Assembly (NCBI GenBank): GCA_003170085.1
Contig: PMZT01000111.1
Span: forward strand, 1-35,664
Length of the DNA: 35,664 bases
DNA from: Planctomycetia bacterium
Lineage (GTDB): Bacteria > Planctomycetota > Phycisphaerae > FEN-1346
Direction of reading: 5' to 3'
The notes under the pieces were generated by a model, which was not told the DNA's origin, did no database searches, and saw only the letters and a program-made list of their open reading frames with translations. A program made the translations under genes and the position numbers. This document shows, piece by piece, positions 8,894 to 33,516 of the stretch; within the stretch, counting starts at the first letter, position 1, and each line of letters starts with the position of its first letter.

Positions 8894-8899
8894 TAGAAT
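8894..8899 (+). promoter_or_regulatory. Candidate -10 element TAGAAT before the transporter operon
   Basis: TAGAAT lies in the 225-base gap between the second sulfatase and the peptide-binding protein gene, about 140 bases before its ATG. No -35 at 16-18 base spacing is convincing (TTGCGG is 23 bases upstream). The same hexamer occurs with a better -35 before the GRE activase gene, which gives this weak call a little support. The rest of the 8812-9036 gap shows no gene. Confidence 0.3.
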
Positions 8900-9036
8900 A
8901 GGGGCCCGCCCACCCCGAAGGCCGAGTTTCTGGAGATACGGGGAGTGGCTGCAAGGAGTGGTCATGGGGGGAGTGATAGGCAGGTCAGCCCGTCAACCGT
9001 GGCCGGATACGTTGCCATGCCGCAGGAGAAGTGAAT

Positions 9037-11211
9037 ATGGGGTGGCTGGCCCTCGGCGCGGTTCTCCTGGCCTCCTGGAACTCACCCTATCCTGCCGCCG
9101 ATGAAAGAGCGAATGTTCTATACACGTCGTTTACGGAGGAGCCCCGGCACCTCGACCCTGCCCGTGCCTATGGCAGCGGCTACGATCAGTTGTACCAGAT
9201 TCTGGAGCCGCCTTTCCAATACCACTTTCTCAAGCGTCCCTACACGCTATTGCCACTGACCGCAACCGACGTACCCCGGCCGGAAACCCGGACCCTCACC
9301 TGGCGGGGCGAGACCCTCCAGGCCACCGTTTACACGATCCGGATCAAACGCGGCATCCGCTACCAGAATCATCCGTGTTTCGTCGAGGCGAACCGCCGGC
9401 TCACGCCGGAAGGCGTCCGGCAGGTCCGGTCGGTCGAGGACTTTGCCCAGGCGGCCACGCGCGAACTCGTGGCGGCCGACTATGTCCTTGCCATCCGGCG
9501 GCTGGCGGATCCGCGCCTTTCGTGCCCCGTTCTTCCCACGCTCAAGCAGAACATCCTTGGCCTGCGCGAGTACGGCGACATGCTGGCGTCGGCCATCGAC
9601 GAGGAGCGGAAACGTCGCCGCGAGATCGCCGGTCCCTTGTACAATCAGGAGCAGGACGAGAAGTACAGGCCGATCCGGCTGGACTACGGCGCCTTTGAGT
9701 TCCCGGGTATCCGCGAGGTCGATTCCCACACGTTCGAGGTCGTGCTGCCGCATCCTTACCCGCAGATCCTGTACTGGATGATCCTCCCCTTTTTCTCGCC
9801 GGTCCCGCCGGAAGCGACCGAGTTCTTCGACCAGCCCGTGCTCCTGGAGCGGTCGATCATCTTCGACAGGAACCCTGTCGGCACAGGGCCTTACCGATTG
9901 GCCGAATACGATCCGACCAATCAGATTGTCCTCGTGCGGAACGAAAACTTCCATGGGGAGGCGTACCCTGATCTGGCACGGCCCGGCGCGGACGACCCGA
10001 ATGCGCTGGCGCTGTATGAGAAGATGCGCGCCGAGGGCATGTTGGCCGACGCCGGCAAGCCGTTGCCGATGACGGACCGGGTCGTGCTGCGGCGCGAGAA
10101 AGAGTGGATTCCGCTGTGGAACAAGTTCCTCCAGGGCTACTATGACATGTCGGAGATCAGCAGCGACCTCTTCGACCAGGCGGTCACGCTCACGTCGCAA
10201 GGCGATGTGCGGGTCTCGGACGAGATGGCCCGGCGCGGCATCCGGCTGTTGACCACCCCGTTGCCGAAAGTGTACTACCTCGCGTTCAACATGCGGGATC
10301 CGCGGGTCGGCGGCTATAGCGAAAAGCAGCGCAAACTGCGACAGGCGATCAACATCGCGTTTGACTCGGAGGAGGAGATCGCCATCTTCTTCAACGGCCG
10401 GGGAATACCCGCCCACAGCCCCATTCCGCCGGAGGTCTTCGGCTACGAAGACGGCGAGGCGGGCATCAACCCCTTCTCTTACCGGTGGGATGCGAGGCTG
10501 AAGAAGCCCGTCCGCCGGTCACTCGAGGAGGCGAAACGCCTGCTGGCCGAGGCGGGCTACCCCGACGGCTATGGCCCCGACGGCCGGCCGCTCGTGATCG
10601 GTTTTGACAACGCGTACGTGAGCGCGACTGACCGGCCGCACCTCAGGTTCATCGTCAAGCAATTCGCGAAACTCGGCATCCGCCTGGAATCGCGGACCAG
10701 CGACTATAACCGTCTCTGGGACAAGGTGATGGACGGCAACTACCAGTTGCTTGCCTGGGGGTGGCTGGCGGACTACCCTGACCCGGAGAACTTCCTGTTT
10801 CTGCTCTACGGCCCCAACGCCCGGGGCAAGGGCGGCAGCGAGAACAACGCCAACTACGCCAATCCCGAGTTCGACAGGCTGTTCGTACAGATGCGGAACC
10901 TATCGAACACGCCGGAGCGACTCGCGCTCATCCGCCGGATGAACCGCCTCTTCCAGGAAGACGCGCCGTGGGTGCTTGGGAATCACCCCGTTTTGTACGC
11001 GCTTGTTCACCAGTGGTATGGTAATGCATACCCACATGCCATGTACCCCAACATCATGAAGTACCGGAAGATCGACGTCGGCGCCAGGGCCGATCGCCAG
11101 AACCAGTGGAATACTCCGCACTGGGGGCCTGTGCTGGTGGTTCTCCTGGTGCTCGCGGTCCCCGCCGCGGCGGGCATCCGGGCCGCCATCCGACACGCAC
11201 GAGAGGCCTGA
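9037..11211 (+). CDS. Extracytoplasmic peptide-binding protein (SBP_bac_5) with C-terminal membrane anchor
   Basis: This is the solute receptor of a Dpp/Opp-type ABC importer. I choose ATG 9037 over GTG 9031 because AGGAG (9024-9028) is spaced correctly only for the ATG. The 724-residue product has a signal peptide (MGWLALGAVLLASW...). Family-5 binding protein features follow: EPRHLDPARAY near the N-terminus, GTGPYRLAEYDPTNQIVLVRN, and WGWLADYPDPENFLFLLYG. It is longer than the usual 500-600 residues, with a charged insertion around 185-225 (EERKRRREIAGPLYNQEQDE). The last 30 residues form a transmembrane helix (VLVVLLVLAVPAAAGI) ending in Arg/His-rich sequence, so the receptor is membrane-anchored rather than a lipoprotein. 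The permease gene begins 4 bases after its stop. The likely ligand is a peptide, perhaps proline- or hydroxyproline-rich, judging from downstream genes. Confidence 0.9.
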   Translation: MGWLALGAVLLASWNSPYPAADERANVLYTSFTEEPRHLDPARAYGSGYDQLYQILEPPFQYHFLKRPYTLLPLTATDVPRPETRTLTWRGETLQATVYTIRIKRGIRYQNHPCFVEANRRLTPEGVRQVRSVEDFAQAATRELVAADYVLAIRRLADPRLSCPVLPTLKQNILGLREYGDMLASAIDEERKRRREIAGPLYNQEQDEKYRPIRLDYGAFEFPGIREVDSHTFEVVLPHPYPQILYWMILPFFSPVPPEATEFFDQPVLLERSIIFDRNPVGTGPYRLAEYDPTNQIVLVRNENFHGEAYPDLARPGADDPNALALYEKMRAEGMLADAGKPLPMTDRVVLRREKEWIPLWNKFLQGYYDMSEISSDLFDQAVTLTSQGDVRVSDEMARRGIRLLTTPLPKVYYLAFNMRDPRVGGYSEKQRKLRQAINIAFDSEEEIAIFFNGRGIPAHSPIPPEVFGYEDGEAGINPFSYRWDARLKKPVRRSLEEAKRLLAEAGYPDGYGPDGRPLVIGFDNAYVSATDRPHLRFIVKQFAKLGIRLESRTSDYNRLWDKVMDGNYQLLAWGWLADYPDPENFLFLLYGPNARGKGGSENNANYANPEFDRLFVQMRNLSNTPERLALIRRMNRLFQEDAPWVLGNHPVLYALVHQWYGNAYPHAMYPNIMKYRKIDVGARADRQNQWNTPHWGPVLVVLLVLAVPAAAGIRAAIRHAREA

Positions 11212-11215
11212 CCGC

Positions 11216-13459
11216 ATGATCGCGTACTTCATACGACGCCTGCTCTACGCCGCGCCGATCGTCGGGGGCGTTCTCGTCCTGACGTTCATACTATTCTTCG
11301 TGGTGAACAAGCCCGACGACATGGCGCGGCGGATCCTGGGCGAGAAACAGGCCACTCCCCAGGCCATCGAAAACTGGAAACGCGAGCACGGCTACCACCT
11401 CCCCCTGTTTCTGAACACCGACGAGCAGGGTCTCAGGAAGGTCACGGCCACCTTGTTCTTCCAGAAGGGCGCGCGGCTGCTCGTGTTCGACCTCGGGCGG
11501 TCCGATGTCACCGACCGCGACATCGCCGCCGAGATCAGGCGGAGGATGGGCCCCAGCCTGGCCATTGCGGTGCCTACGTTCGTGCTGGGCATGGCGGTGA
11601 GCGTCACCATTGCCCTCATCATCGCCTTCTGCCGGGGAACCTACCTGGACCGATGGGGAACCGTGGTCTGCGTTCTGATGATGTCGGTCTCATCGCTCTT
11701 TTACATTATTGTGGGGCAGTTCATCTTTGCGGTCTGGCTGCGGTTGTTCCCGATCTCCGGGTTCGACTGGGGCGGGTCGATGCCGAAGTTCGTCGTCCTG
11801 CCCATCCTCATCGGCCTCGTGGACGGCATCGGCGGCGGCGTGCGCTATTACCGCACCGTGGTGCTCGAGGAGACGGGGCGCGACTACGTCCGGACCGCGC
11901 GGGCCAAAGGCCTCAGCGAAGCGGTCGTGCTTTTCCGCCACGTCCTCAAGAACGCCCTGATCCCCATCCTGACCAATGCCGTGACGGCCATTCCCTTCCT
12001 GTTTATGGGCAGCCTGATTATGGAATCGTTCTTCGCGATTCCGGGGCTGGGCAGCATGACCATCGATGCCATTCACGCGCAGGATTTTGCCGTCGTGCGG
12101 TCCGTGGTTTACATCAGCGCCTTCCTGTACATCGCCGGCCAGTTGATGACGGATTTCAGTTACACGCTCGTGGACCCGCGCGTCACGCTGGGCGCCGGCG
12201 ATACACGCAACCTTTACAGCGCGCCGTCGTGCTCCGACGCCGCCCTATTCCTGGGCCTCTTCGCTGCGATGGCGGCCGTTGCGGCCGGAGGCTATTTCGG
12301 CGTCCGGTGGCTGTCGGAGTCGCCCGCCGTCAGCGGCCTGCGCGTGCCCCTGCTGCCGAACGCGGCGCTCGTGCTCACGGTGCTGGGGGCCGCCGGCTTC
12401 TGGCTCAGGGCGCGCCGGCGCGAACTCTGGCGCAGCGCCTGGCGCGAGGTCAGGCGCAGCCCAGTCGCCGTGGCCGCCCTGGCTGTGCTGGGGGTATACG
12501 TTGCCATCGCTATCCTCGACAGCGTCTCATGGCGCGACGTGGAGCCCGGCCCCGACGGCGCCCCGCGCCTGACCGCTTCCGGACAGGTGCTCTACACGCC
12601 GCCCCGCTCGGCGATCGACCGGATCCTTGCCCCCCTCGCGGCCCCGGAGAAGACCTACTCGGCCCCCTTGGCCGCGCAGTCTCTCATGAGAGAAACCGTC
12701 GATGGGGCCGCGGCCGGCGGGACCGTCACGCAGCAGATTTACCCGCCGTTGGATCATCCCGGCCGGCACCTGCTGGGCACCGACAAGGTCGGGCAGGACG
12801 TGTTCTGCCAGACCGTCAAGAGCGTACGCACGGGGCTGATTGTCGGTGGGCTCACCACGCTCATTGCGGTGCCTTTCGCCATTCTGTTCGGCGTCCTCGC
12901 CGGCTTCTTTGGCGGTTGGGTCGATGATGTGGTCCAGTACGCGTACAGCACGCTGGCCTCGGTGCCGTGGGTGCTGCTGGCCGTGGCTTTCATGCTGGTC
13001 TTCGGGCAGGGACTGCCGCAACTGTGTGTGGTGCTGGGCCTGACCGGTTGGGTCTCGTTGTGCCGCGTGCTGCGCGGTGAGACCTTGAAACTGCGCGAAC
13101 GCGAGTACGTACAGGCCGCGCTGGCGTTGGGGGTCTCGCGGCTTCGTGTCATCTACCAGCACGTGATCCCCAACCTGATGCACCTGGTGCTCATCAGCGT
13201 GGTCCTGCGGTTCAGTTGGCTCGTGTTGGCCGAGGCGGTGCTGAGTTACATCGGCGTCGGCGTTGGTCCCGAAACCTCCAGTTGGGGTTCGATGATCGAC
13301 CAGGCCCGCAGTGAACTGGGCCGCGACCCGATCGTCTGGTGGGGTCTGGCCGGCGCCTTCGTAGCCATGTTCGGCCTTGTGCTGAGCGCCAACCTCTTCG
13401 GCGATGCGCTGCGGGATGCCCTCGACCCGCGCCTGCGCATTCGGGAGGAACGGGCATGA
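11216..13459 (+). CDS. Fused DppB-DppC peptide ABC transporter permease
   Basis: A 747-residue polypeptide joins both integral-membrane halves of a Dpp/Opp importer, which are normally separate proteins of about 300-330 residues. Residues 1-330 are DppB-like: N-terminus [18 protein letters not shown], and the EAA-type coupling segment around [18 protein letters not shown]. Residues about 340-440 contain extra hydrophobic helices joining the halves. From about 400 the DppC half begins, with a long soluble loop ([18 protein letters not shown]), then [10 protein letters not shown], membrane helices, and its own coupling segment [37 protein letters not shown] is a classic DppC ending. The gene overlaps the ATPase gene by ATGA. 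The continuous frame with a sensible linker argues for a true fusion rather than a missed stop. Confidence 0.92.
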
Positions 13460-15480
13460 GCGGGCCTCTTCTGAAGGTTGAGAACTTGCGGACCTGGTTC
13501 CGCACCACCGCAGACCCACTCCGTGCCGTTGACGGTGTCTCGTTCACGCTTGATCGGGGCGAGACGCTCGGCCTGGTGGGCGAGTCGGGCTGCGGCAAGA
13601 CACTGACAGGCCTCTCGCTCATGCAGCTTGTTCCCCAGCCGACGGGGTACATTGCGGGCGGTTCCGTCCTCTTCGAAGGCCAGAACCTCCTGGCCATGAC
13701 GGGGCCCGAGAAGCGCAGCCTCCGCGGCCGGAAGATGGCCATGATATTCCAAGAGCCCATGACCAGCCTGAACCCGGTCCTGACGGTCCAGACGCAACTC
13801 CTGGAGGCGGTCCGGCGGCGGGAGCGCCTTTCGCGATCCCGTGCGATTGAGCGGGCCCTCTCGGTGCTGCGGCTCGTCCGGATGCCCGACCCGGCCGCGC
13901 GACTGGGCCAGTATCCCTATCAACTTTCCGGCGGAATGCAGCAGCGCGTGATGATCGCGATGGCGCTGGCGTGCGAGCCGGCCCTCCTGATCGCCGACGA
14001 ACCGACGACGGCGCTCGACGTCACCGTGGAAGCCCAGATTCTGGATCTCTTACGCGACCTTCAGGCGCGGCTGGGCACGGCGATCCTGTTCATCACGCAC
14101 GATCTGGCGGTGGTGGCCGAGATGGCCCGTCGCGTGGCCGTGATGTACGCCGGAAAGATCGTCGAAATGGCGCCGTCCGGCGCGCTTCTCGGCGGGACGG
14201 GCCCGATGCATCCCTACACGCAACTGCTGCTCCGCTCGCGGCCGAGCCGCCAGCAGCGCCAACGGCGGCTCGAAAGCATCGGCGGTGTCGTACCCAGCCC
14301 GTCCTGCTTCCCGCCGGGCTGCCGTTTCTCGGATCGGTGTCCGCACGCGCTGGATCTCTGTCAGGGCACTGAGCCCGTCCTCGCCGAGGTCGAGAAGGGC
14401 CACTTCGTGGCGTGCCACCTGCAGGGTGCACGCCGAGCGGCGGCGGCTGTCGGGCCGCCTGTGGCGGCTGGAGTTAGCGCCGATGCCGGGCGCGAGAACC
14501 ATCTGCTTCTTGAAGCACGGAGCGTCGTGAAGTACTTCGCTATCCGGAAGGGTGTCCTCAAGCGGATCGTCGGTCATGTCAAGGCCGTGGACGGCGTTGA
14601 CTTGGCCATCCGCCGCGGCAGCACGGTTGCGTTGGTGGGCGAGTCGGGCTGCGGCAAGACGACCCTCGGTAAAACGCTCATCCGTCTCCTGCCGGCGACG
14701 GCCGGCACGGTCCTCTTCGATGGCGCCGATCTGACGGCCCTCGGAGACCCTGAGTTGCTGCGCCTCCGTCGCCGCGCCCAGATCATCTTTCAGGATCCGT
14801 TCCTGTCGTTGAATCCGCGGATGATGGTCCGCGAGATCATCGAGGAAGGGATGCGGGTCCACGGACTGGGCGGTACGGCGTCCGGCCGAAAGGAGCGGGT
14901 TGACCAACTGCTCAACTGCGTGGGTCTCTCGCCGCGAGCGGCGACGGCCTACCCCCACGAGTTTTCGGGCGGGCAGCGGCAGAGGATCGGCATCGCGCGC
15001 GTGCTGGCCGTCGAGCCCGACTTCGTGGTGTGTGACGAGCCTACCAGCGCTCTTGACGTCTCGATCCAGGCGCAGATACTGAACCTCCTCCGGGAACTTC
15101 AGGAGCGGTTCCAGTTGACGTACCTGTTCATCACGCACAATCTGGGTGTGGTGGAGTACGTGGCCGACGAGGTGGCGGTCATGTACCTGGGGCGGATCGT
15201 TGAGCAAGGCCCGACCGAGCCGCTCTTCGATGAACCCCTTCACCCGTATACGCAGGCACTGCTTTCGGCCATCCCGAGCGCCGACCCCTCGCAGCATACG
15301 CAGCGTATCCGTCTCGAGGGAGACGTGCCTTCGCCTATCGCGCCGCCGCCGGGGTGCCACTTTCATCCCCGTTGCCGCTACGCCATGACGGTATGCCGGA
15401 GCGTATACCCGAACGAGACGCGGCTGGATGGCGGCCGGGTAGTTCGCTGCCACCTTTACGAAGGACGACCGCATGCCTGA
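13456..15480 (+). CDS. Fused DppD-DppF peptide ABC transporter ATPase
   Basis: I set the start at ATG 13456, which overlaps the permease stop (ATGA) and has GGGAGGA 8 bases upstream; the track's 13339 start would overlap the permease by about 120 bases. The 674-residue protein holds two complete ABC ATPase units. Unit 1: Walker A GESGCGKT (about 42-49), signature LSGGMQQR, Walker [13 protein letters not shown]. Unit 2: second GESGCGKT, signature FSGGQRQR, Walker [13 protein letters not shown]. Each unit ends in the oligopeptide-transporter Cys motif ([17 protein letters not shown] and [17 protein letters not shown]). It powers uptake by the upstream permease. Single-gene DppDF fusions are known, but here both permease and ATPase pairs are fused, so the transporter needs only three genes. 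The downstream gene overlaps it by 8 bases. Confidence 0.95.
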
Positions 15481-18400
15481 AGACAGCACAAGACCACTGA
15501 TTCTCTGGTATAACCGGCCTGCCGCCGAGTGGCGGGAGGCGTTGCCCGTCGGCAACGGCCGCCTCGGGGCCATGGTTTTCGGGACGGCGCCGGCCGAGCG
15601 CATCCAACTGAACGAGGAGACGGTCTGGACGGGCGGGCCTTATGACCCGGCTCAGCCCGGCGGCCCCGAGGCCCTGCCTGAGATCCGCCGGCTCGTCTTC
15701 GCCGGCGAGTGCATGAAGGCCCACTATCTTTTCGGCAAGACGATGATGGGCCGGCCCGTCGAGCAGATGAAGTACCAGCCGCTGGGCAACCTCAGGCTCA
15801 CCTTTCCGGGGCACGACGATGTGGCCGACTACGGGCGCGAATTGGACCTCGACGCCGCAGTGGCCACGGTCTCGTACCGTGTGGGCGGCGTTCACTTTGC
15901 ACGCGAAGTTCTGGCCAGCGCGGTCGATCAGGTTGTCTGCATCCGTCTGACGGCCGATGCGGAGAAGGCTATTTCCTTTGAGGCCGACTTCTCCGGCGGG
16001 CAGGAAGGCCGGCCTCAGGGCGATGCGACGTGGGAGTGCACCGTGTCAGCCCCCGACGAACTGGTGTTGCGCGGCCGCACGGCCGGCCATCAGGGTATCG
16101 AGGGCCGCGTGGCGTACGAGGCCCGTGTCAAGGTGCTCGCGGAGGGCGGGGAAGTGGCCGCCCGCGAAGGACGGTTGATGGTCACAGGCGCCGATGCCGC
16201 CACCCTGCTCGTTGCGGCCGCGACGAACTTTGTCCGGTACAACGATCTCGGAGGCGAAAGCGCCGCACGCGTTCGGTCGTGTCTCGATGCCGCGGCCGGC
16301 AAGCCGTATCGCCGGATCAAGGACGCCCACGTGGCCGATCATCGGCGGCTACTGCGGCGTGTGGCCCTGGAACTGCCGGCGACCGAGGCGTCCTCGCTAC
16401 CTACCGACGAGCGCCTCCGGCGTTACGCCGAGGCCGGCGACCCGCACCTGGCCGCGCTCATGTTCCAGTTTGGCAGATACCTGTTGATCTCAAGCAGCCG
16501 CCCGGGATGCCAGCCCGCCAACCTCCAGGGGATCTGGAACGAGGATGTCAACCCGGCGTGGGAAAGCAAGTTCACAACCAACATCAACCTGGAGATGAAC
16601 TACTGGCCAGCCGAAGTGGCGAACCTCCCGGAGTGCGTTGAGCCCCTCGTGTGTCTCGTGGAAGACCTCGCTGTGACGGGCCGGCGCATCGCCGAGATTC
16701 ACTATGGGGCGCGCGGCTGGGTGCTCCACCAGAACACGGACCTGTGGCGGGCGGCCGCCCCGATGGATGGGCCGACGTGGGGCACCTGGCCGATGGGCGG
16801 CGCGTGGTTGTGCCGGCACCTGTGGGAACATTATCTTTACAGCGGCGACCGCGAGTTCCTCAGTCGCGTGTACCCGCTCTTCACGGGGGCGGCGCAATTC
16901 TTCATCGACACGCTGGTCGAGCATCCCGGGAGCGGCCGGCTGGTGACCTGCCCGTCGAGTTCGCCGGAGAATTTCCCCGCGTGCCCGGGCAACGGCAAAT
17001 ACTTTGATGAGGTGCTCAAGTTCAACCTTCCCGGCACGAGCATCTGCGCCGGTCCGACGATGGATACGCAGATTCTGCGCGACCTGTTCTCGGCCTGCAT
17101 CGCCGCGGCCGAGATTCTCGGGCTTGATGCCGATCCGCGGAAAACGTGGACGCTCACCCGCGCGCGTCTTGCCCCGATGCAAGCCGGCCGCAACGGCAAC
17201 CTCCAGGAGTGGCTCGAGGACTGGGACGACCTCGAGCACCAGCACCGCCACCTGTCGCACCTGTATGGGGCGTTCCCCAGCGACCAGATCACGCCCGAGG
17301 AAACCCCCGACTTGGCGGAAGCCGTGAGGGCGTCGCTGGAGCAACGGGGCGATGGCGGTACGGGGTTCTCGATGGCCTGGAAGGCCGCCTTGTGGGCTCG
17401 CCTTCGAGACGGCGACCGCGCTCACCGCTGCCTGGCGAACCTCATCACGAAAAACACCTGCCCGAACGGATTCTCGCTGTGCTTCAAGGCACCGCAGGTG
17501 GACGGCACGTTCGGCGGCTGCGCGGCCATCGCCGAAATGCTGCTCCAGTCGCATGGCGGGGCGATCCGCCTGCTGCCGGCGCTGCCCGCGGCCTGGCCCG
17601 ACGGGGCGTTCCGGGGGTTCCGGGCGCGCGGCGGGCTGGAAGTCGATCTCACTTGGCGTGGCGGCCGCGCGCAGTCGGCCACGATCCGCGCAGCCGTGGC
17701 GGGTCGTTTCTGCGTTAAGCCGCCGCCGGGGCAGCGGATCGCAGAGGTGATCAGCGCCGGCGCGGCGGCCGCCGGCGTGGCGGTTTCGATCAGCCCGCAC
17801 GCGGACGGCTCGGCGGACCTTGAGTTCCGCGCAGGCCAGGCTTGCGACATCGTGTTTGCCGAGGCCGGTTCGGGCGCAGCGGAGTCGTCGGCGCCACGGC
17901 CCGGCTCGTCCGAGGAGGTGCTGTTCCCGCGGGACTTCCCGCCCGAGGAATTTGCGTCGCGATGGGCGCGGATCTTCGAGGCCATCGGACCCCGGGCGCA
18001 CGCCCTTCTTCAAGGTGCCCCTCCGGTCCGCGGCTTCGAGGTCTTCCGCCAGACCAACGAATTCTATTACTGCTGCGGCGTGGAAGTGCCCCAGACCTAC
18101 CTGCTCCTGGACGCGGCGAACCGCCGGACGACGCTCTTTCTTCCTCACCGCCCCAAGGGGCGAAACGCGGAGGGGGCGTCTCTCGCGGCGGAGGACGCCG
18201 ACCTGTTCCGGCGGCGAACCGGCGTCGACGCCGTGTTCGGGATCGAAACGCTGTCCGACCACCTGCGGGGCATCTCCGTTCTCTACACGCCACATAGTCC
18301 CGCGGAAGGGAGGTTCGGCGACCGTTTCGAGGCCAAACGGGCCGACCAGTGCGCGGCGGAGGATGCGTGGGACGGTCGGCCGCCGCGCGAGCGGCATCTC

Positions 18401-19249
18401 ATCGACCTGCTTCGGGCGCGCCTGCCCGGCGTCGAGATTCGCGACCTCTCACCGGTGCTCGATGAGCGGCGCGCGGTCAAGAGCCCTCGCGAGATCGATC
18501 TCCTGCGCCGGGCCGGCCACCTCTCGGCGGTGGCAATCACCGAGGCCATGCGCGCCACTCGCCCGGGGATGGTCGAGTACCAGTTGGGCGCGATCGCCGA
18601 CCACATTTTTCTGAGCCACGGCGCGCGGGGCGAAGGGTATCGCTCGATTATCGCCAGCGGCAAGAACGCGTGGTTTGCCCACTACTTCCGCAACACCGGC
18701 GTGATGAAAGAGGGGGATCTTGTGCTGATGGACGCCGCCCCGGACCTCGGCCACTACACCAGCGACATCGGCCGCATGTGGCCCGTGGGCGGCGTTTACA
18801 CCCCGTGGCAGCGCGAGCTGTACGGCTTCATTGTGGAGTATCACAAGACGCTGCTTGCACGGGTACGCCCCGGCGTGACCGCGGACCAGATCCTTGCCGA
18901 GGCTGCCGCCGAGATGGCCAAGGTGGTGGAACAAACGGCCTTCTTGAAGGGAACCTACAGGGATGCGGCTCGCCGCACGCTCGAGTTCAAGGGGCACCTG
19001 TCGCATCCGGTTGGCATGGCGGTGCACGATCCCGGCGGATATCGCGAGAAGCCGCTCGCCGCAGGCGTCGTATTCGCGGTTGACCCGCAGATGTGGGTTC
19101 CCGAGGAGGAACTCTACATCCGGGTCGAGGACACCGTGGTGGTGACCGAACAGGGGATTGAGAATCTCACGGCCGCCGCGCCGCTGGAACTGGATGACGC
19201 TCAGGCCGTGATGCGCGAGGCGAGCGCATTCCCGCGGTTGGGGCACTGA
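15473..19249 (+). CDS. GH95 glycosidase fused to an M24B Xaa-Pro peptidase-like domain
   Basis: A 1258-residue cytoplasmic protein (no signal peptide). Residues about 8-800 form a full GH95 enzyme, a family of alpha-L-fucosidases and alpha-L-galactosidases: [21 protein letters not shown], the Asn-x-Asn pair N370/N372 in [10 protein letters not shown], acid-candidate Glu579 in LQEWLED, and Asp677 in VDGTFGG. A Ser/Pro/Glu-rich linker (about 800-816) leads to a creatinase-like N-domain (about 817-1010) and a pita-bread M24B catalytic domain. Metal ligands: Asp1087, Asp1098 (spacing 11), His1178 with His1185 (spacing 7, as in PepP), Asp1204 where Glu is usual, and Glu1219. M24B enzymes cut Xaa-Pro bonds. 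No internal stop or spaced ribosome site is visible at the junction. It overlaps the ATPase gene by 8 bases. I infer it trims sugar and prolyl bonds of imported glycopeptides. Confidence 0.9.
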
Positions 19250-19255
19250 TACCCC

Positions 19256-19284
19256 TTGCCGTCCCAGGCGCGCGAACCTAGAAT
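19256..19284 (+). promoter_or_regulatory. Candidate sigma70-type promoter before the GRE operon
   Basis: TTGCCG (19256-19261) and TAGAAT (19279-19284) are separated by exactly 17 bases, in the 105-base gap between the GH95-M24 gene and the GRE activase. The match is 4/6 and 5/6 to consensus. It would allow the dehydratase genes to be expressed apart from the transporter, for example under anoxia. No operator was recognised. Confidence 0.45.
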
Positions 19285-19353
19285 CATCGGCCACTCGCGG
19301 CGCACGGGAGCGCGAAGGAGTGCCGACCGCCTCCGCCGCCGACTACCAGCCCT

Positions 19354-20346
19354 ATGGCGCCGCACAAGGACGGTTATCACCGGGTTAACATGGGTATAGA
19401 GGCACGCAAATCTTCGGGCGCGATATCCGACCCGCCCGGCGCTGGCGCGGGCCAGAGCGGCCTTGTCTTCGATATTCAGAGATACTCCATCCACGACGGT
19501 CCGGGCATCCGCACCACGGTCTTTATGAAAGGATGCCCGCTCGACTGCTGGTGGTGCCACAACCCCGAGAGCCAATCGGCCGAGCCCGAGATCGTTGTAA
19601 GCGAAGGCCGATGCGTCCGTTGCGGCGAGTGCCTGAAGGTTTGCCCCAACGGCAGGGTGAGCGGCAGCGCCGGCGCGGAGGGGCCGCCCTGCACGCTGTG
19701 CGGCGCATGCGTCGCGGCGTGTCCCACGGGCGCCCGGAAGTTGGCCGGAGAGCGGATGACCGTGGGCACTTGTGTGGCCGAAGTGCTCAAGGACCGCATC
19801 TTCTACGAGGACTCCGGCGGCGGCGTGACCTTCTCGGGCGGCGAGCCGCTCCTTCAGCCGCGCTTCCTCAAGCGGCTGCTTGAAGCGTGCCGCGGCGCGG
19901 GCCTCCACACGGCCGTGGACACATGCGGTTTCGCCCCGTGGGACGACCTGCTGGCGGTGGCGCCGCTGACGACCCTCTTTCTCTATGACCTGAAGGGCGC
20001 CGATTCTCGAAGTCACATGGACCACACGGGGGTCTCAAGTGCCCTTATTCTCGACAACCTGCGGGCCTTGGGGGCCGTCCACAACAACCTCTGGCTCCGC
20101 GTGCCCATCCTCCCCGGCCTGAACGATGACGACGCCCAGTTGGAGGCGATGGCCTCCCTGGCAGCTTCCATTGCGGGAGTGCGGCAGGTGAACCTGCTGC
20201 CGTACCATCAAACGGGTATGCATAAGTTCAGACAACTCGGCAGGGCCTACCGGCTGGAGGGGCTCGTGCCGCCGTCGCCGGAGCGCATGGAGGAAGTAGC
20301 GGCCAGGTTCAGGGCCTTCGGCCTCAAAGTCCGGGTGGGAGGTTAG
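19354..20346 (+). CDS. Glycyl radical enzyme activase (HypD-activating enzyme)
   Basis: A 330-residue radical-SAM protein that installs the glycyl radical on the enzyme encoded next to it, using S-adenosylmethionine and a [4Fe-4S] cluster. The RYSIHDGPGIRTTVF segment is diagnostic of GRE activases. The radical-SAM cysteines are C61, C65 and C68 (CPLDCWWC, the CX3CX2C form). Two ferredoxin-type motifs follow: CVRCGECLKVCP (C87-C97) and CTLCGACVAACP (C113-C123), as in activases of the glycerol-dehydratase and HypD type. FSGGEPLLQP is the SAM-binding GGE motif. No good ribosome site precedes ATG 19354; ATG 19390 would match the length of homologues equally well, so the start is uncertain. Its stop is only 4 bases from the dehydratase start. 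Confidence 0.94.
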   Translation: MAPHKDGYHRVNMGIEARKSSGAISDPPGAGAGQSGLVFDIQRYSIHDGPGIRTTVFMKGCPLDCWWCHNPESQSAEPEIVVSEGRCVRCGECLKVCPNGRVSGSAGAEGPPCTLCGACVAACPTGARKLAGERMTVGTCVAEVLKDRIFYEDSGGGVTFSGGEPLLQPRFLKRLLEACRGAGLHTAVDTCGFAPWDDLLAVAPLTTLFLYDLKGADSRSHMDHTGVSSALILDNLRALGAVHNNLWLRVPILPGLNDDDAQLEAMASLAASIAGVRQVNLLPYHQTGMHKFRQLGRAYRLEGLVPPSPERMEEVAARFRAFGLKVRVGG

Positions 20347-20350
20347 CGGC

Positions 20351-22756
20351 ATGACGCAGCGAACGGCAAGGCTGAGGCGGGCCAGTCTGGACGCCGCACC
20401 CTCAATCACCCCGGAGCGGGCGGTCCTGATGACAGAGTTCTACCAGGCCAATGACGGACGGTACTCCGTACCGGTCATGCGGGCACGCTCATTCCTTCAC
20501 CTGTGCGAGAACAAGGCGATCTACCTGGGCGAAGACGAACTGATTGTGGGAGAGCGGGGGCCTCGGCCCAAAGCGGTGCCTACCTACCCGGAATTGACCT
20601 GCCACAGCATTGAGGATCTCCAGATCCTCAACTCTCGCCCGAAGACCAGTTACGCGGTATCGGATGAGTGCGTCAGGATCTACCGGGACCGAATCATCCC
20701 GTACTGGCGCGGCCGCAGCATGCGGGACCGCATCTTCGAGGCCGTCTCGGACGAGTGGCGTCAAGCCTACGATGCCGGTCTGTTCACGGAGTTCATGGAG
20801 CAGCGGGCACCGGGGCATACGGTCCTCGACGACAAGATCTACCGCAAGGGCATGGTGGATTTCAAGCGTGAGATCGCCGAGGCCATTGCCGGTCTCGACT
20901 GGCTCGGCGATCCCGATGCCTGGGCGAAACGGGAGCAACTCCAGGCCATGGCGATCGCCTGCGATGCCGTCCTCCTGTTTGCCCGGCGCCACGCGGCGCT
21001 GGCGCTCAAGCAGGCGGCCGAGGCGCGCGATCCCCGGCGCAGGGCGGAACTGGAGAAGATCGCCGACGTTTGTACGCACGTCCCCGCCGGCGCCCCGCGG
21101 GATTTCCACGAGGCGCTCCAGTACTACTGGTTCTGCCACCTCGCGATCATCACCGAACTGAACGGCTGGGACTCCTTCAGCCCCGGCCACCTGGACCAGC
21201 ATCTGCTGCCTTTCTACCGCAAGGGTCTCGCCGACGGGACGTTGACCCCGGAGGCCGCGCGCGAACTGCTGGAGGCGTTCTTCGTCAAGTTCAACAACCA
21301 CCCCGCGCCGCCCAAGGTGGGCGTGACGGCGGCCGAGAGCGGCACGTACACGGATTTTGCCAACATCAACATCGGCGGGCTGCTGGCCGACGGCGCCGAC
21401 GGTTCCAATGAAATCTCCCACCTCCTGCTGGACATCGTGGACGAGATGCACCTCCTGCAACCCAGCACCAACCTGCAACTGTCGCGTAAGACGCCCGAGG
21501 CGCTCCTCACGCACGCCCTGCGGGTCGTCAGAAAGGGCTACGGCTTCCCCTCGATCTTCAACACCGACGCCGTGGTCGAGGAGCAGTTGCGCCAAGGCAA
21601 GTCGCTGGAGGACGCCCGCGCCGGCGGGTGCAGCGGATGCGTCGAAACGGGCGCCTTCGGCAAGGAGGCGTACATCCTGACCGGCTACTTCAACCTCGTG
21701 AAGGTGCTGGAATTGACGCTTCACGGCGGCGTGGCCCCGCGCACCGGAAAACAACTGGGCATGCGCACCGCGGCAGCGGACTCCTTCCGGACCTTCGACG
21801 ACTTCTTCGCGGCCTTCCGCGCGCAACTTCACTACCTCATAGACGTCAAAATGCGCGGCAACCAGACGATCGAGCAGATGTACGCCCGCCTGATGCCCGC
21901 GCCGTTCTTGTCGGTCCTTACCGACGACTGCATCCGCAAGGGCAAGGACTACAACGCCGGCGGCGCACGCTACAACAATTCCTACATCCAGTTTGTAGGC
22001 ATCGGAAGCCTGACGGATTGCCTTGCGGCTGTCAGGCAGACGGTCTTTGACGATAAGGCCATGAGTCTTGGCGACCTCGTGAAGGCGCTCGATGCGAACT
22101 TTGAGGGAAGCGAGATTCTCAGGCGGCGCCTCGTCAACCGCACCCCCAAGTACGGCAACGATGACGACGACGCCGACGCGCTCGCCGTCCGGGCCTTCGA
22201 GGCCCTCATTGAAGAGGTGGACGGACGGCCCAACACCAAGGGGGGCCGGTATCGCGTCGAGATGCTCCCGACCACAAGCCACATCTACTTCGGCTCAGTC
22301 ACTGGGGCGATGCCCGACGGGCGGAAGGCGGGGCTGCCGCTGTCGGAGGGGATCTCGCCCGTGCAGGGCGCGGACCGCCGCGGGCCGACGGCCGTCTTCA
22401 AGTCGGCCGCCAAGATGGACCATATCAAGACGGGCGGGGCCCTTCTGAACATGAAGTTCACGCCGGCCCTCTTGGCCGACGAAAACGGCCTCGAGAACCT
22501 TGCGCACCTCATCCGGGCATATTTCAAGATGGACGGCCACCACGTCCAGTTCAACGTGGTCCGTGCCGAGACGCTCCGCAAGGCCCAGGCCGAGCCGGAG
22601 GCCCACCGCGACCTGATCGTCCGCGTGGCCGGCTACAGCGACTACTTCTGCGACCTCGCGCGCGACCTCCAGGACGAGATCATCAGCCGGACGGAGCACG
22701 CGTCGCTTCAACTTGAGGGCGCTCCGTCGGCCCGGTCTTCGGGCGACACCCCATGA
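20351..22756 (+). CDS. hypD: trans-4-Hydroxy-L-proline dehydratase, glycyl radical enzyme
   Basis: This 801-residue GRE should dehydrate trans-4-hydroxy-L-proline to (S)-1-pyrroline-5-carboxylate in the cytoplasm under anoxia. The thiyl cysteine is Cys430 with Glu432 (GCSGCVETG), and the radical glycine is Gly761 in RVAGYSDYF. HypD from C. difficile, as I recall it, uses H160, D278, S334, F340, C434, E436, Y450, T645 and G765. Here H156, D274, S330, F336, C430, E432, Y446, T641 and G761 are all present at a constant offset of four, which separates it from glycerol, choline or pyruvate GREs. GGGAGG precedes ATG 20351. It is overlapped by the AcnX gene (ATGA) and follows its activase. The product needs pyrroline-5-carboxylate reductase, not evident here unless the reductase downstream is bifunctional. 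Confidence 0.95.
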   Translation: MTQRTARLRRASLDAAPSITPERAVLMTEFYQANDGRYSVPVMRARSFLHLCENKAIYLGEDELIVGERGPRPKAVPTYPELTCHSIEDLQILNSRPKTSYAVSDECVRIYRDRIIPYWRGRSMRDRIFEAVSDEWRQAYDAGLFTEFMEQRAPGHTVLDDKIYRKGMVDFKREIAEAIAGLDWLGDPDAWAKREQLQAMAIACDAVLLFARRHAALALKQAAEARDPRRRAELEKIADVCTHVPAGAPRDFHEALQYYWFCHLAIITELNGWDSFSPGHLDQHLLPFYRKGLADGTLTPEAARELLEAFFVKFNNHPAPPKVGVTAAESGTYTDFANINIGGLLADGADGSNEISHLLLDIVDEMHLLQPSTNLQLSRKTPEALLTHALRVVRKGYGFPSIFNTDAVVEEQLRQGKSLEDARAGGCSGCVETGAFGKEAYILTGYFNLVKVLELTLHGGVAPRTGKQLGMRTAAADSFRTFDDFFAAFRAQLHYLIDVKMRGNQTIEQMYARLMPAPFLSVLTDDCIRKGKDYNAGGARYNNSYIQFVGIGSLTDCLAAVRQTVFDDKAMSLGDLVKALDANFEGSEILRRRLVNRTPKYGNDDDDADALAVRAFEALIEEVDGRPNTKGGRYRVEMLPTTSHIYFGSVTGAMPDGRKAGLPLSEGISPVQGADRRGPTAVFKSAAKMDHIKTGGALLNMKFTPALLADENGLENLAHLIRAYFKMDGHHVQFNVVRAETLRKAQAEPEAHRDLIVRVAGYSDYFCDLARDLQDEIISRTEHASLQLEGAPSARSSGDTP

Positions 22757-24012
22757 CAGTCCGCCTGACCGATCTCGACCGCCGGATGCTCGAGGGCCGA
22801 AGCGGCGAAGGGCTCCGCCTGGCCATGTCGATCATCGTGCGCATGGCGGAGGTCTGCGGTGCGGATGAACTGCTGGATGTCTCCCAGGCCCATATCGACG
22901 GATGCGGCTCCCTGAGCGAGTCCAGCCTGCAGTTCGCCGAGACGCTGGCCTCCGGCGGCGCGAAGGTCTCCATCCCTACCACCCTGAACATGGGCCCCCT
23001 GGACCTCCAGAACTGGAGGGTGTTCGGCGTTCCCGGGGAGTTCGCCGCCAAGGCCATCCGCCAAGCCAGGGCCTATACCGACATGGGGTGCATCCCGACC
23101 TGGACGTGCGCCCCCTATCAGGGTTACCTGACGCCGCGGTTCGGCCAGCAGATCGCCTGGGGGGAATCCAACGCGGTCGTCTATGCCAACTCCGTCCTCG
23201 GCGCAAGGACCGAGCGCTACGGCGACTACATCGACATCTCGGCCGCTATCACCGGACGCGTCCCACGCCAGGGTCTGCACCTGAAGGAGAACCGCAGGGG
23301 GCAACTGCTGGTGCGCCTGGTGGACTTCAGCCCTGGCCGGCTGCGCGAGGAGACGTTCTGGCCCGCCTTCGGGCATTTTCTTGGGCCGGTTGCCGGCGAC
23401 CGGATTCCCGTCATTGAGGGCCTGCCGCCGGATGCGACGGACGACCAGTTGAAGGCTCTGGGCGCCGCGGCCGCCTCGTCCGGCGCGGTGGCGCTTTTCC
23501 ACGCCGTCGGCCTGACCCCCGAGGCCCCGACCGCGGCCGAGGCTTTCCAGGGCGGCCGGCCGGAAGAGACCCTCGATGTGCGTACCGGCGACCTGGACGC
23601 CGCCGCTGCCGATCTTTCGACCGCCGACGAAGGGGCGCCGCTGGACCTCGTCCTCCTGGGCTGCCCGCATTTCTCCTTTGCCGAATTTCGCCAGTTGGCT
23701 GAACAGGTCCGGCTCGCCCCAGGCCGATCGCGTTGCTCGTTCATCGTGATCACGTCCACGCAGGCCCATGCGCTGCTCGAGCGGAGCGGCTTGCCCGCGT
23801 CGCTCGCGGATTTCGGCGTTCGCATTACGCTCGACACGTGCATGTTCCACACCCCGATGGTCGCCCCGGGGACGCGGGTGGTTATGACCAACTCCGGAAA
23901 GTGTGCGTACTACGCGCCGGGCGAACTCGGCGTGAAGGTGGCATTCGGGAGCCTCGCCGACTGTGTCCGTTCGGCCGTCGAGGGCCGCGTGCGGCGGGAG
24001 GGTCGCCGATGA
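22753..24012 (+). CDS. Aconitase X catalytic (large) subunit
   Basis: A 419-residue protein of the AcnX large-subunit family (formerly DUF521). Bacterial AcnX enzymes dehydrate cis-3-hydroxy-L-proline to pyrroline-2-carboxylate; archaeal ones act on mevalonate 5-phosphate. Supporting motifs are SAHID-type AHIDGCGSLSESSLQFAE, TTLNMGPLDL, CAPYQGYL, WGESNAVVYANSVLGAR, LLGCPHFS and TLDTCMFHTP. Cysteines in CAPY, GCPH and DTC are the candidate iron-sulfur ligands, and SGKCAYYAPG near the C-terminus is also typical. The start overlaps the HypD stop (ATGA) and its stop overlaps the small-subunit start (ATGA), so the three are translationally coupled. Position beside HypD and an ornithine-cyclodeaminase homologue favours the hydroxyproline-dehydratase role. 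Substrate stereochemistry cannot be decided from sequence. Confidence 0.9.
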   Translation: MTVRLTDLDRRMLEGRSGEGLRLAMSIIVRMAEVCGADELLDVSQAHIDGCGSLSESSLQFAETLASGGAKVSIPTTLNMGPLDLQNWRVFGVPGEFAAKAIRQARAYTDMGCIPTWTCAPYQGYLTPRFGQQIAWGESNAVVYANSVLGARTERYGDYIDISAAITGRVPRQGLHLKENRRGQLLVRLVDFSPGRLREETFWPAFGHFLGPVAGDRIPVIEGLPPDATDDQLKALGAAAASSGAVALFHAVGLTPEAPTAAEAFQGGRPEETLDVRTGDLDAAAADLSTADEGAPLDLVLLGCPHFSFAEFRQLAEQVRLAPGRSRCSFIVITSTQAHALLERSGLPASLADFGVRITLDTCMFHTPMVAPGTRVVMTNSGKCAYYAPGELGVKVAFGSLADCVRSAVEGRVRREGRR

Positions 24013-24440
24013 CCCGGCACCTGATCGGCAGAGTCCTTGTCTCCGGTGCCGCAGAGGGCTTGGCGCTCGTGACCAGGCAACCGCTCAGTTTCTGGGGCGG
24101 CTTCAACCCGAAGACCGGCGAAATCGTGGACCGGCGGCACGAATGCTCTGGCCAGATCGTCACGGGGCGGGTGTTTGTCCTCCCGGCTGGGAAAGGCTCC
24201 AGCACGGGCAGCGCATGCCTGCTGGAGGGTATCCGTCTCGGCACGGCCCCCGCCGCCATCCTCCTCTTGAAGACGGACCCGATCCTGGCCCTCGGCGCCA
24301 TCGTGGCCGACGAACTCTACGGCCGGTCGGTGCCCATCCTGGTGCTGCCCGAAGAGGGTTTCCACTCGCTGAAAGACGGCGACCGCGTTGCCATTGCACG
24401 CGGTGGCGAACTGACGGTGAGTTCTCCCGACACAGTGTAA
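24009..24440 (+). CDS. Aconitase X swivelling (small) subunit
   Basis: A 143-residue protein of the DUF126/AcnX small-subunit family, which forms the swivelling domain of the heterodimer. I choose ATG 24009, overlapping the large-subunit stop; the track's start at 23733 lies inside that gene and is a shadow extension. The diagnostic loop is LPAGKGSSTGS, which contains the conserved serine that contributes to the active site, and the ISRLGTAPAA-like segment is seen as RLGTAPAAILL. The C-terminus VLPEEGFHSLKDGDRVAI is a normal family ending. Length is typical. Confidence 0.92.
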   Translation: MTRHLIGRVLVSGAAEGLALVTRQPLSFWGGFNPKTGEIVDRRHECSGQIVTGRVFVLPAGKGSSTGSACLLEGIRLGTAPAAILLLKTDPILALGAIVADELYGRSVPILVLPEEGFHSLKDGDRVAIARGGELTVSSPDTV

Positions 24441-24450
24441 AGGACATACC

Positions 24451-25440
24451 ATGCTGGTTCTGGATGCCGCTGCCGTGCGGCAGGCGCTGCCGATGGACGC
24501 CGCCATCAAGGCCATGAGGCGAGCCTTCGCATCGCTTTCCGCCGGTCGGGCCATCATGCCCATGCGATCGCAAATCTCAATCCGGCAGCACGACGGCGTC
24601 AGCCTGGTCATGCCTGCGTTTGTGGATGATGCCGAGGGGCAGTCGCTGGCGGTCAAGGTCGTGTCGCTGTTCGACCGCAACGCCGGTCGCGGCCTGCCGC
24701 GCATTCAGTCGGCGGTCCTGGTGCTCTCGCCCGACACGGGGCAGCCGCTGGCGCTTCTGGAAGGGGCCGCGCTCACCGCCATCCGGACCGGCGCCGCCAG
24801 CGGCCTGGCCACGGACCTTCTGGCGCGGCCGGACGCCCGCACGGCGGCCATTTTGGGGGCTGGAGTTCAGGCTCGCACGCAATTGCAGGCCATGTGTGTC
24901 GTCCGAGCCATTGAGACCGTCTGGGTGTACGATCCGAATCCGGCCGCGGTAGAGGCGTTCATTCGTGACATGGCGGGGCAGGGGCAGGCGCCCCCTGATA
25001 TCCGCCCGGCCTCCACGCCGCGCGAGGCCGTGGCCGAGGCCGATGTCATCTGTGCGGCGACCACCTCGCGCACGCCTGTCTTCGCGGATGCCGACCTGAA
25101 AGCGGGTGTGCACATCAACGCCGTGGGCTCTTACCAGCCCGATGTGCGGGAGGTTCCGACGGAGACCGTTGTCCGTGCGCGGGTCTTTGTTGACAGCCGC
25201 GAGGCGGCTTTGCAGGAGGCGGGCGACCTTATCCAGCCCATCCGCCAGGGCGCCATCAACCCGGATCACATCCGGGCCGAGCTGGGCGAACTCGTCTTGG
25301 GGCGCGCGCGAGGACGGTGCTGCGCCACCGACGTCACCTTGTTCAAGGCCGTGGGCGTTGCCGTGCAGGACGCCGCGGCCGCCATGGAGGCACTTGACCG
25401 GGCTGCGCGGCTTGGCAGCGGCCAGACAGTCTCCTGGTAA
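24451..25440 (+). CDS. Ornithine cyclodeaminase/mu-crystallin family reductase, probable pyrroline-2-carboxylate reductase
   Basis: A 329-residue NAD(P)H-dependent enzyme. AAAGGA lies about 6 bases before ATG 24451. The family segment LEGAALTAIRTGAASGLAT is followed by the Rossmann signature AAILGAGVQARTQL, with the dinucleotide-binding GAGVQA loop, and by VYDPNPAAVEAF. In known gene clusters, homologues beside AcnX reduce pyrroline-2-carboxylate to L-proline; true ornithine cyclodeaminases and alanine dehydrogenases are the alternatives. It ends the operon, 10 bases after the AcnX small subunit. Whether it also takes pyrroline-5-carboxylate made by HypD is an open question and would determine whether the operon is self-sufficient. 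Confidence 0.9.
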   Translation: MLVLDAAAVRQALPMDAAIKAMRRAFASLSAGRAIMPMRSQISIRQHDGVSLVMPAFVDDAEGQSLAVKVVSLFDRNAGRGLPRIQSAVLVLSPDTGQPLALLEGAALTAIRTGAASGLATDLLARPDARTAAILGAGVQARTQLQAMCVVRAIETVWVYDPNPAAVEAFIRDMAGQGQAPPDIRPASTPREAVAEADVICAATTSRTPVFADADLKAGVHINAVGSYQPDVREVPTETVVRARVFVDSREAALQEAGDLIQPIRQGAINPDHIRAELGELVLGRARGRCCATDVTLFKAVGVAVQDAAAAMEALDRAARLGSGQTVSW

Positions 25441-32856: not shown

Positions 32857-33490
32857 TAGAGCGGTTTAAGATTGCGTGGTGACATACCCGCACTCCTTGA
32901 ACCATCCAAGCACGTCCGAGGCCGTCACGGATCGCAGGGCGTCATGAATGGCCTCGAGCAAGGCATCCAGCGTTCGGGCTTTGGCTTTGCGGAGGAAGGC
33001 CTTCACCTTGGACCACATCTTCTCGATGGGATTCAGGTCGGGGCTGTAGGGCGGCAGGAAACACACCGTGGCGCCGCAGGATTCGATCGCGGCAATAACG
33101 GTCGGCATCTTGTGCGGCGAGAGGTTGTCCATCACTACCAAGTCGCCAGGACGAAGGCTCGGCGCCAGCACCCGCTTGGCGTATTGCGGGAATACCTTGG
33201 CATCCGTGGCCCCCTCGATCACCATCGCGGCCGTGGCGCCGTCCAGCCGGACCGACGACAGTAGCGTCGTGGTGGCCCAATGACCGGCCGGGGCGGCGTC
33301 TACCAATCGCTGGCCGCCGGGGGCACGCCCGCGCAGGCGAGTCATAGTGGTCTTGGCGCCCGTCTCGTCGAGGAACACCAGGCGATTGCGGTCTATCTCG
33401 GCCGTGCGCTCTCGCCACGCCTGGCGCTGCTCGACGACATCGGGGCGATCTTGTTCGCTGGCATGGAGCGACTTTTTTAAAACGCAGGTC
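32857..33490 (-). mobile_element. Truncated IS630-family element
   Basis: The 3' part of an IS630-type transposase gene with one plausible end. TA followed by GAGCGGTTTAAGATTG (32857-32874) lies immediately beyond the transposase stop and would be a terminal repeat at a TA target. I searched the 33480-33700 stretch for CAATCTTAAACCGCTC and did not find it, so the other end is missing. The right boundary is therefore approximate. Confidence 0.65.
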
Positions 33491-33516
33491 CAATCGGACG
33501 AGGGGCCACTGGGCAA
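32866..33516 (-). pseudogene. IS630-family transposase, DDE half only
   Basis: The 216-codon frame has the IS630/Tc1-like DDE catalytic core: VFLDETG (first Asp), VVMDNLSPHK (second Asp) and LPPYSPDLNPIEKMWSKVK (Glu). Homology begins near LKKSLHASEQDRPDV; the preceding ~12 codons are unrelated and the helix-turn-helix DNA-binding half is absent. The join is at TTTTAAAAAAG (minus strand 33482-33472), a run of the kind some IS630 elements use for frameshifting between orfA and orfB. The upstream -1/+1 frame ends GPAF* at this point, but contains no recognisable HTH. I read it as a 5'-truncated, inactive copy. Confidence 0.8.

Follow-up and report, generated by a model that had tools for sequence, protein, structure and literature searches.

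A planctomycete operon predicted to salvage hydroxylated proline from short peptides, combining HypD with an unclassified AcnX

The nine-gene operon described here lies in a window of 35,664 nucleotides of planctomycete DNA (the whole stretch that was analysed). Its core probably serves the salvage of hydroxylated proline from short peptides under anaerobiosis, by way of import, peptidase, HypD and ProC, ending in L-proline; we give this reading a probability of about 0.7. The remaining genes encode an AcnX and an ornithine cyclodeaminase (OCD)-type reductase, families by which a 3-hydroxyl would be removed and the resulting pyrroline reduced. All nine open reading frames are co-directional (9031-25440, + strand), in the order importer, GH95-M24, activase, HypD, AcnX large and small subunit, OCD. 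They are listed below with the sulfatase upstream of the operon.

7267-8811 (+), sulfatase (PF00884, 181 bits)
9031-11211 (+), peptide-type ABC solute-binding protein, SBP_bac_5 (PF00496, 169 bits; 61% to the homologue in genome G003)
11216-13459 (+), fused DppB-DppC-type permease (two PF00528 stretches)
13456-15480 (+), fused DppD-DppF-type ATPase (two ABC_tran and two oligo_HPY stretches)
15473-19249 (+), GH95 fused to an M24/AMPP peptidase (PF22124, 550 bits; PF00557, 149 bits; PF05195)
19354-20346 (+), radical-SAM glycyl-radical-enzyme activase (best match NCBIfam T4HPD activase; TIGR02494 subfamily passed)
20351-22756 (+), predicted trans-4-hydroxy-L-proline dehydratase HypD, a glycyl radical enzyme (GRE) (NF043068; 6vxc, 1010 bits)
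22753-24012 (+), AcnX large subunit (PF04412, 466 bits)
24009-24440 (+), AcnX small (swivel) subunit (PF01989, 93.5 bits)
24451-25440 (+), OCD/mu-crystallin-family imine reductase (PF02423, 241 bits)

Profile searches recovered all nine genes of the original prediction, on one strand and with the identities it had assigned. Its span of 8894-25440 was right in content and end, and started slightly early, the first gene beginning at 9031. It had also proposed that most joints overlap by 4 bases or fewer. Read from the DNA, this is right with two exceptions: 4-base overlaps join permease to ATPase (ATPase ATG at 13456), HypD to AcnX large and AcnX large to AcnX small (large subunit gene first), while gaps of 4 bases separate solute-binding protein from permease and activase from HypD, and a gap of 10 bases separates AcnX small from OCD. 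The exceptions are an 8-base overlap between ATPase and GH95-M24 and a 104-base gap between GH95-M24 and activase. A scan of the operon for promoters and terminators gave no more signals than in shuffled sequences, none of them convincing, and no regulator gene for the nine genes was found.

HypD scored 1232.6 bits against the NCBIfam equivalog NF043068, above its cut-off of 1100. It is identical to the Clostridioides difficile enzyme at 10 of 10 sites (H160, D278, S334, D339, F340, C434, E436, Y450, T645, G765), which are the residues tested by mutagenesis in that enzyme (PMC7077986); Cys430, Glu432 and Gly761 of the operon protein correspond to C434, E436 and G765. Both results support the canonical HypD that had been predicted. 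HplG or another GRE was rejected as an identity, since 6vxc matched with 1010 bits and HplG with 443. The activase scored 362 bits against the T4HPD activase equivalog, below the cut-off of 425. The system of C. difficile and other gut Clostridia (HypD, activase and ProC) has the same GRE, activase, ten assayed residues and expected conversion of P5C to proline. In contrast, proC is not adjacent here, and the operon adds a peptide importer, an M24 peptidase and AcnX-OCD. This contrast was part of the original prediction; proC does adjoin hypD in Clostridia, but only in some (PMC9044972), which weakens it.

Peptide import, as predicted, is supported by the families of the importer, which has the parts of a Dpp/Opp system (SBP_bac_5, OppB/C permeases, two oligo_HPY ATPases) with permease and ATPase subunits each fused. 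The C-terminus of the solute-binding protein carries a TM-like segment, and the lipobox Cys of the G003 homologue is replaced by Trp.

The GH95-M24 protein consists of GH95 (aa 1-~800; best PDB match 7kmq) and M24 (aa ~814-1258; best PDB match aminopeptidase P), with no obvious signal peptide. Of the five metal-binding residues of the M24 family (D, D, H, E, E), four are present; the fourth ligand, Glu383 in the E. coli enzyme, is Asp in all three homologues. The GH95 catalytic motifs are intact (NIN for NxN, the Glu of SPEN, the Asp of VDG). With GH95 in frame with M24 and sulfatases in the neighbourhood, the operon might be thought to serve Hyp-rich plant or algal glycoproteins, GH95 stripping fucose or galactose from imported glycopeptides ahead of M24 and HypD. 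However, no locus seen outside the source genome has the fusion, M24 stands alone in G002 and G004, and the source genome has about ten GH95 domains besides that of the operon. Moreover, short peptides are the usual cargo of Opp-type importers. We consider this reading improbable. Because the M24 of relatives lacks GH95 and the genome holds so many others, we rejected GH95 as a defining part of the operon and found the predicted glycopeptide role unsupported; the domain is a recent and probably accessory fusion.

The contig also carries two sulfatases and a PL8 chondroitinase-like lyase (33616-35586, - strand), which could point to animal extracellular matrix, with the operon serving collagen peptides. 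The lyase, however, lies 8 kb off on the opposite strand, and sulfatases are common in genomes of this kind. Collagen contains trans-3-, not cis-3-hydroxyproline, so AcnX would go unexplained, and we regard an extracellular-matrix role as unlikely, if slightly less so than the glycoprotein one. A homologue of the upstream sulfatase (82%) sits downstream of OCD in G004; this gene is possibly a loose associate of the operon.

Genes of relatives were identified by tblastn and cross-locus comparison. The original prediction had staked its reading on conservation of gene order, and the order was found to be kept. M24-activase-HypD-AcnXL-AcnXS-OCD recurs with 76-87% identity in G004, a MAG of the same family (VGYT01000054), and activase-HypD-AcnXL-AcnXS-OCD in a third MAG, G005 (JAUVZF010000102). 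As two independent genomes share the core order, the cluster is more than a product of chance. The GRE of G005 belongs to another lineage, while its AcnX and OCD rank among the closest found, which implies that the association either persisted or was re-established around a different HypD. The fused transporter adjoins HypD in G002 and G003 and is present in G198, the only three of the 12 genomes searched with orthologues of the fused permease (60-71%). G004 yielded an ATPase fragment only, no permease reaching the threshold used for a match, and neither transporter nor M24 was found at the G005 locus. Hence, neither transport nor peptidase is an obligatory partner.

Across the class, M24 was nearby in 16 of the 54 HypD loci checked and an ACE-like M2 peptidase in 19, usually with a symporter. 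Because HypD of distant relatives so often stands beside an ACE-like peptidase, a symporter and another M24, the link between HypD and peptides is real. The predicted Xaa-Pro-type (M24B) peptidase is supported, and across the class HypD is repeatedly accompanied by transporters and Pro-specific peptidases. The Sedimentisphaerales-type module (activase-HypD-M2 peptidase-SSF symporter-M24) likewise combines HypD with peptidases and an importer, but has a symporter and an ACE-like lipoprotein where our operon has the ABC peptide importer. Many of its HypDs have Thr for Glu436, and AcnX lies elsewhere in those genomes, beside a DPP-IV peptidase.

The operon had been called self-contained. It holds no enzyme acting on P5C, the expected HypD product, so that this label fails: P5C would need ProC, which scored above its cut-off in the source genome (G000), encoded on another contig. 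PutA/proline dehydrogenase had no match in G000 and the best match of its aldehyde dehydrogenase on C59 was PRK10090 aldehyde dehydrogenase rather than P5CDH; a route from P5C to glutamate was set aside. The Stickland proline reductase (PF09338) had no match either, but its control was also silent, so this is no evidence of absence. No heme-copper oxidase was detected in the 8 genomes searched (control positive in 8 of 14), consistent with the source planctomycete, which appears to be an anaerobe. In the core route, then, the importer would take up oligopeptides, and the cytoplasmic aminopeptidase P-type M24 domain would cleave bonds adjoining proline or hydroxyproline. The activase would place the glycyl radical on HypD, which, judged by family and active site, would convert trans-4-hydroxy-L-proline to P5C, and ProC would complete the path to proline.

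The predicted AcnX/OCD arm is present at the level of families, with an AcnX pocket that differs from the characterised types. D203, E292 and K530 are kept in the large subunit and W35, S70 and T72 in the small one; I206 is replaced by Gly and C71 by Ser. The [4Fe-4S]-type ligands C273/C449/C508, with Phe at 510, are the set of archaeal mevalonate-5-phosphate (MVA5P) dehydratases (PMC8184944). Judged by this combination of 3-hydroxyproline-recognition residues, Gly for Ile206 and cysteine triad, the operon AcnX is a new, unclassified subclass. Proteobacterial L-hydroxyproline clusters (LhpI, an AcnX type I, with Delta1-pyrroline-2-carboxylate reductase) likewise place AcnX and a reductase near 4-hydroxyproline genes and share the C3LHyp-recognition residues. 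In contrast to them, AcnX here has two subunits, Gly for I206 and the triad of type IIb, and the operon has a GRE route in place of epimerase, oxidase and deaminase. OCD had 6t3e, a Delta1-pyrroline-2-carboxylate reductase, as best PDB match (279 bits), and stayed below the cut-offs of two curated equivalogs (330 versus 417 bits; 280 versus 322 bits).

Archaeal type IIb AcnX shares the two subunits and the three-cysteine ligands. On the strength of the cysteine triad, the operon AcnX might be an MVA5P dehydratase-like or other hydro-lyase rather than a proline enzyme, placed beside HypD by chance. However, TkAcnX Leu27, Val64, Ala47 and Ser50 are Trp, Thr, Asp and Gly here, outside type IIb, the residues that recognise the substrate match the hydroxyproline type, and AcnX stands beside an imine reductase and HypD or, at other loci, DPP-IV peptidases. 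We consider this very unlikely.

Two readings of the AcnX-OCD arm are, in our estimate, roughly level, and both are tentative. In a parallel arrangement, AcnX-OCD would take free cis-3-hydroxy-L-proline to L-proline and HypD would take trans-4-hydroxyproline, with no flux between them. Type I and IIa AcnX have demonstrated activity on cis-3-hydroxy-L-proline (PMC5144071, PMC8184944), and S293, N294 and Y534 are kept along with the six residues above. However, telomycin is the only source of cis-3-hydroxyproline known to the authors of one study (PMC8184944), and Gly here takes the place of Ile206, a residue that packs against ring C4-C5. Nor does this arrangement explain why, of 24 genomes with the AcnX subclass, 23 were found to have a GRE of the HypD family as well (background 16%), as against neither of 2 proteobacteria carrying an ordinary AcnX. 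Most of these partner GREs have Thr at the catalytic Glu; the source HypD keeps Glu.

We somewhat favour a serial arrangement. AcnX would dehydrate the cis-3-OH of 2,3-cis-3,4-trans-3,4-dihydroxy-L-proline, an amino acid of diatom cell walls, OCD would reduce the resulting 4-hydroxy-pyrroline-2-carboxylate to trans-4-hydroxy-L-proline, and HypD and then ProC would take this via P5C to proline. We know of no described degradation route for this dihydroxyproline, and none was found in the literature searched. The serial arrangement is favoured because the stereochemistry of the diatom residue offers exactly the hydroxyl that each enzyme needs, and because the Ile206 that blocks C4 in known AcnX is Gly. 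Furthermore, a proteobacterial AcnX and reductase convert a dihydroxyproline isomer, weakly, to cis-4-hydroxyproline (PMC5144071).

These results extend HypD metabolism beyond gut Clostridia to planctomycetes of sediments, cold seeps and deep water, and tie it to peptide import and proline-specific peptidases. They also bring to notice that, of the sampled planctomycetal proteins to which annotation would give the name HypD, about half have no Glu at the catalytic position. Finally, they expose an AcnX subclass with residues between two characterised types, which may let the planctomycete use an unusual diatom cell-wall amino acid. If the dihydroxyproline reading is true, it would provide a fate for this widespread compound and supply AcnX with a natural substrate, the known one being hardly recorded from nature.

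The window spans the whole of C275, a contig in a draft genome of 4.47 Mb whose close relatives are planctomycete MAGs. Nine genes lie on its plus strand between 9031 and 25440; matches to domain and family profiles identify them, in order, as follows.

9031-11211, plus strand: family-5 peptide receptor
plus strand: fused OppB-OppC-like permease
plus strand: fused OppD-OppF-like ATPase
plus strand: GH95-M24 fusion
plus strand: glycyl-radical enzyme (GRE) activase
20351-22756, plus strand: GRE
plus strand: AcnX large subunit
plus strand: AcnX small subunit
plus strand to 25440: OCD-family reductase

The joints between these genes range from an 8-base overlap to a 10-base gap, with the 104-base gap upstream of the activase as sole exception. 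The operon is real, and anaerobic hydroxyproline salvage is well supported for its core of peptide import, peptidase and HypD (trans-4-hydroxy-L-proline dehydratase). The receptor has Trp at the lipobox Cys position of its G003 homologue (LASW vs LAGC) and a TM-like segment at its end, so that its anchoring may differ; the Trp is possibly a sequencing error.

By its sequence, the GRE is a HypD. It scored 1232.6 bits against the curated HypD cut-off of 1100, its closest solved structure was C. difficile HypD (1010 bits; runner-up 529), and all ten residues mutagenised in that enzyme (PMC7077986) are identical. It is the only PFL-like GRE in the genome, which encodes ProC on a different contig. 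Proline dehydrogenase was not found in the window genome or G004, and G005 gave only a weak 28-bit match; these absences are soft because the genomes are drafts, 74-95% complete. In G002 and G003, where AcnX was not found, a proline dehydrogenase shares its contig with an aldehyde-dehydrogenase match. A COX1-family oxidase was not found in eight of these genomes (control search positive in 8/14), which is consistent with an oxygen-sensitive GRE.

Part of the gene order originally predicted to form one operon is kept in relatives. G004, the nearest relative to possess the M24-to-OCD core, carries M24-activase-HypD-AcnX large-AcnX small-OCD with the order unchanged and identities of 76-87%, and G005 carries the activase-to-OCD part. 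Upstream of the G004 operon the fused ATPase is reduced to its C-terminal portion (L028:15168-17061); downstream, after one gene, lies a homologue (82%) of the second sulfatase in the window. The fused permease was not found in the G004 genome at E <= 1e-40; loss of the transporter or a misjoined contig may be the reason. Among twelve genomes searched, this permease turned up only in G000 (the window genome), G002, G003 and G198. In G002 and G003 the fused ATPase, permease and receptor adjoin HypD in convergent orientation. As read from its translation, a LipB-like ORF lies immediately upstream of HypD in G003, in the activase's place (L029:2381-5793).

In the HypD tree, G000, G002, G003 and G004 form one clade and G005 falls in a distant one, yet the AcnX and OCD of G005 are closer to the window's than all others but G004's. 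Hence the linkage of HypD, AcnX and OCD either survived a HypD swap or arose twice, and either speaks for a functional tie.

Co-occurrence was also found across the class. In 397 genomes, a HypD-family GRE was detected in 64 (E <= 1e-200) and AcnX in 13 (E <= 1e-60). Eleven of the latter were assigned to the window's AcnX clade on the basis of identity, together with residues wherever these were read. Each of the 11 has a HypD-family GRE; the two with a divergent AcnX, which lacks the hydroxyproline landmarks, have none. Among the named genomes of the AcnX clade the count was 18/19, versus 0/2 proteobacteria. After removal of genomes in both sets (identical contig, position and score), the pooled count was 23/24 (naive binomial p about 1e-17, kinship ignored). 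The dependence runs one way: HypD is frequent without AcnX.

The GRE family itself is divided. At position 436 (C. difficile numbering; Glu432 in the window), 68 HypD-family loci, planctomycetal with one from Bipolaricaulota, have Glu in 34 and Thr in 34, and no other site tells the two sets apart cleanly. Thr-type proteins (C-X-T instead of C-X-E; e.g. L036:4455-6815, L184 and L208) retain the remaining assayed residues and pass the HypD cut-off; databases would label them HypD. However, C-X-E is described as conserved in GRE eliminases, and C. difficile HypD E436Q is inactive (PMC7077986). The window, G004 and G198 are of the Glu type; G005, most other AcnX-bearing genomes and the Bipolaricaulota GREs read are of the Thr type. 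The co-occurrence argument thus applies to the GRE family, half of which, judging from this residue, may not use trans-4-hydroxyproline.

Peptidases recur at these loci. Among 54 HypD loci of the class, M24 is nearby in 16 and an ACE-like M2 peptidase in 19, counts that are not independent because most of the loci share descent. Their usual arrangement is activase-HypD-M2-SSF symporter-M24, with M2 a lipoprotein, a module conserved in many Sedimentisphaerales-type genomes (L171-L177, L182-L184, L189, L194, L195, L275, L276, L278, L279). Their M24 differs from that of the window, at about 25-30% identity. In many other planctomycetes AcnX adjoins an S9 peptidase of the DPP-IV family, and a more distant homologue of OCD is often there too (L046-L056, L062, L217, L220). 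The thread common to HypD and AcnX loci is a peptide-bound substrate.

The glycopeptide role first proposed for GH95 found no support. Its motifs are intact, but no tie to the pathway was seen: in G002 and G004 the M24 protein comes without a GH95 part, about ten further GH95 domains occur in the window genome, and GH95 is present in every genome searched. The GH95-M24 junction may be a real fusion or an assembly error. Near the contig end lies a PL8 lyase whose catalytic domain is of the chondroitinase-ABC type (33616-35586, minus strand); this lyase together with two sulfatases hints at sulfated glycan use. Between the PL8 gene and a PPC-domain protein is a transposase-like ORF (32866-33516, minus strand; IS630-type from motif reading).

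The AcnX of the window is, on its residues, a new, unclassified subclass. In the numbering of PMC8184944, it retains the cis-3-hydroxy-L-proline dehydratase residues W35, S70, T72, D203, E292, S293, N294, K530 and Y534, and replaces I206 by Gly, C71 by Ser, C510 by Phe and S449 by Cys. This gives a three-cysteine set as in archaeal [4Fe-4S] enzymes. Planctomycetal loci of the clade, where readable in full, show the same pattern, as do three Bipolaricaulota AcnX, these with Ala at 206. W35 and I206 pack on ring C4-C5 and have been tied to poor use of a 3,4-dihydroxyproline (PMC8184944).

A candidate substrate is 2,3-cis-3,4-trans-3,4-dihydroxy-L-proline, which is present in diatom cell walls (PMC3478156, PMC4792425) and has been described as general among diatoms (PMC5501833). 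Its 3-OH is in the cis geometry required by AcnX, and its 4-OH in that of trans-4-hydroxy-L-proline. AcnX and OCD would convert it to trans-4-hydroxy-L-proline, the substrate of HypD. P. aeruginosa AcnX together with a reductase turned the 3,4-cis isomer into cis-4-hydroxyproline, at an activity about 300-fold below that on cis-3-hydroxyproline (PMC5144071); the substrate proposed here is instead the 3,4-trans isomer. A parallel route, in which AcnX-OCD acts on cis-3-hydroxyproline, is a priori about equally likely, but that compound has no known abundant source. The dihydroxyproline route would account for the operon, the one-way co-occurrence and the Gly at 206. It is a testable hypothesis, and more novel than the salvage core.
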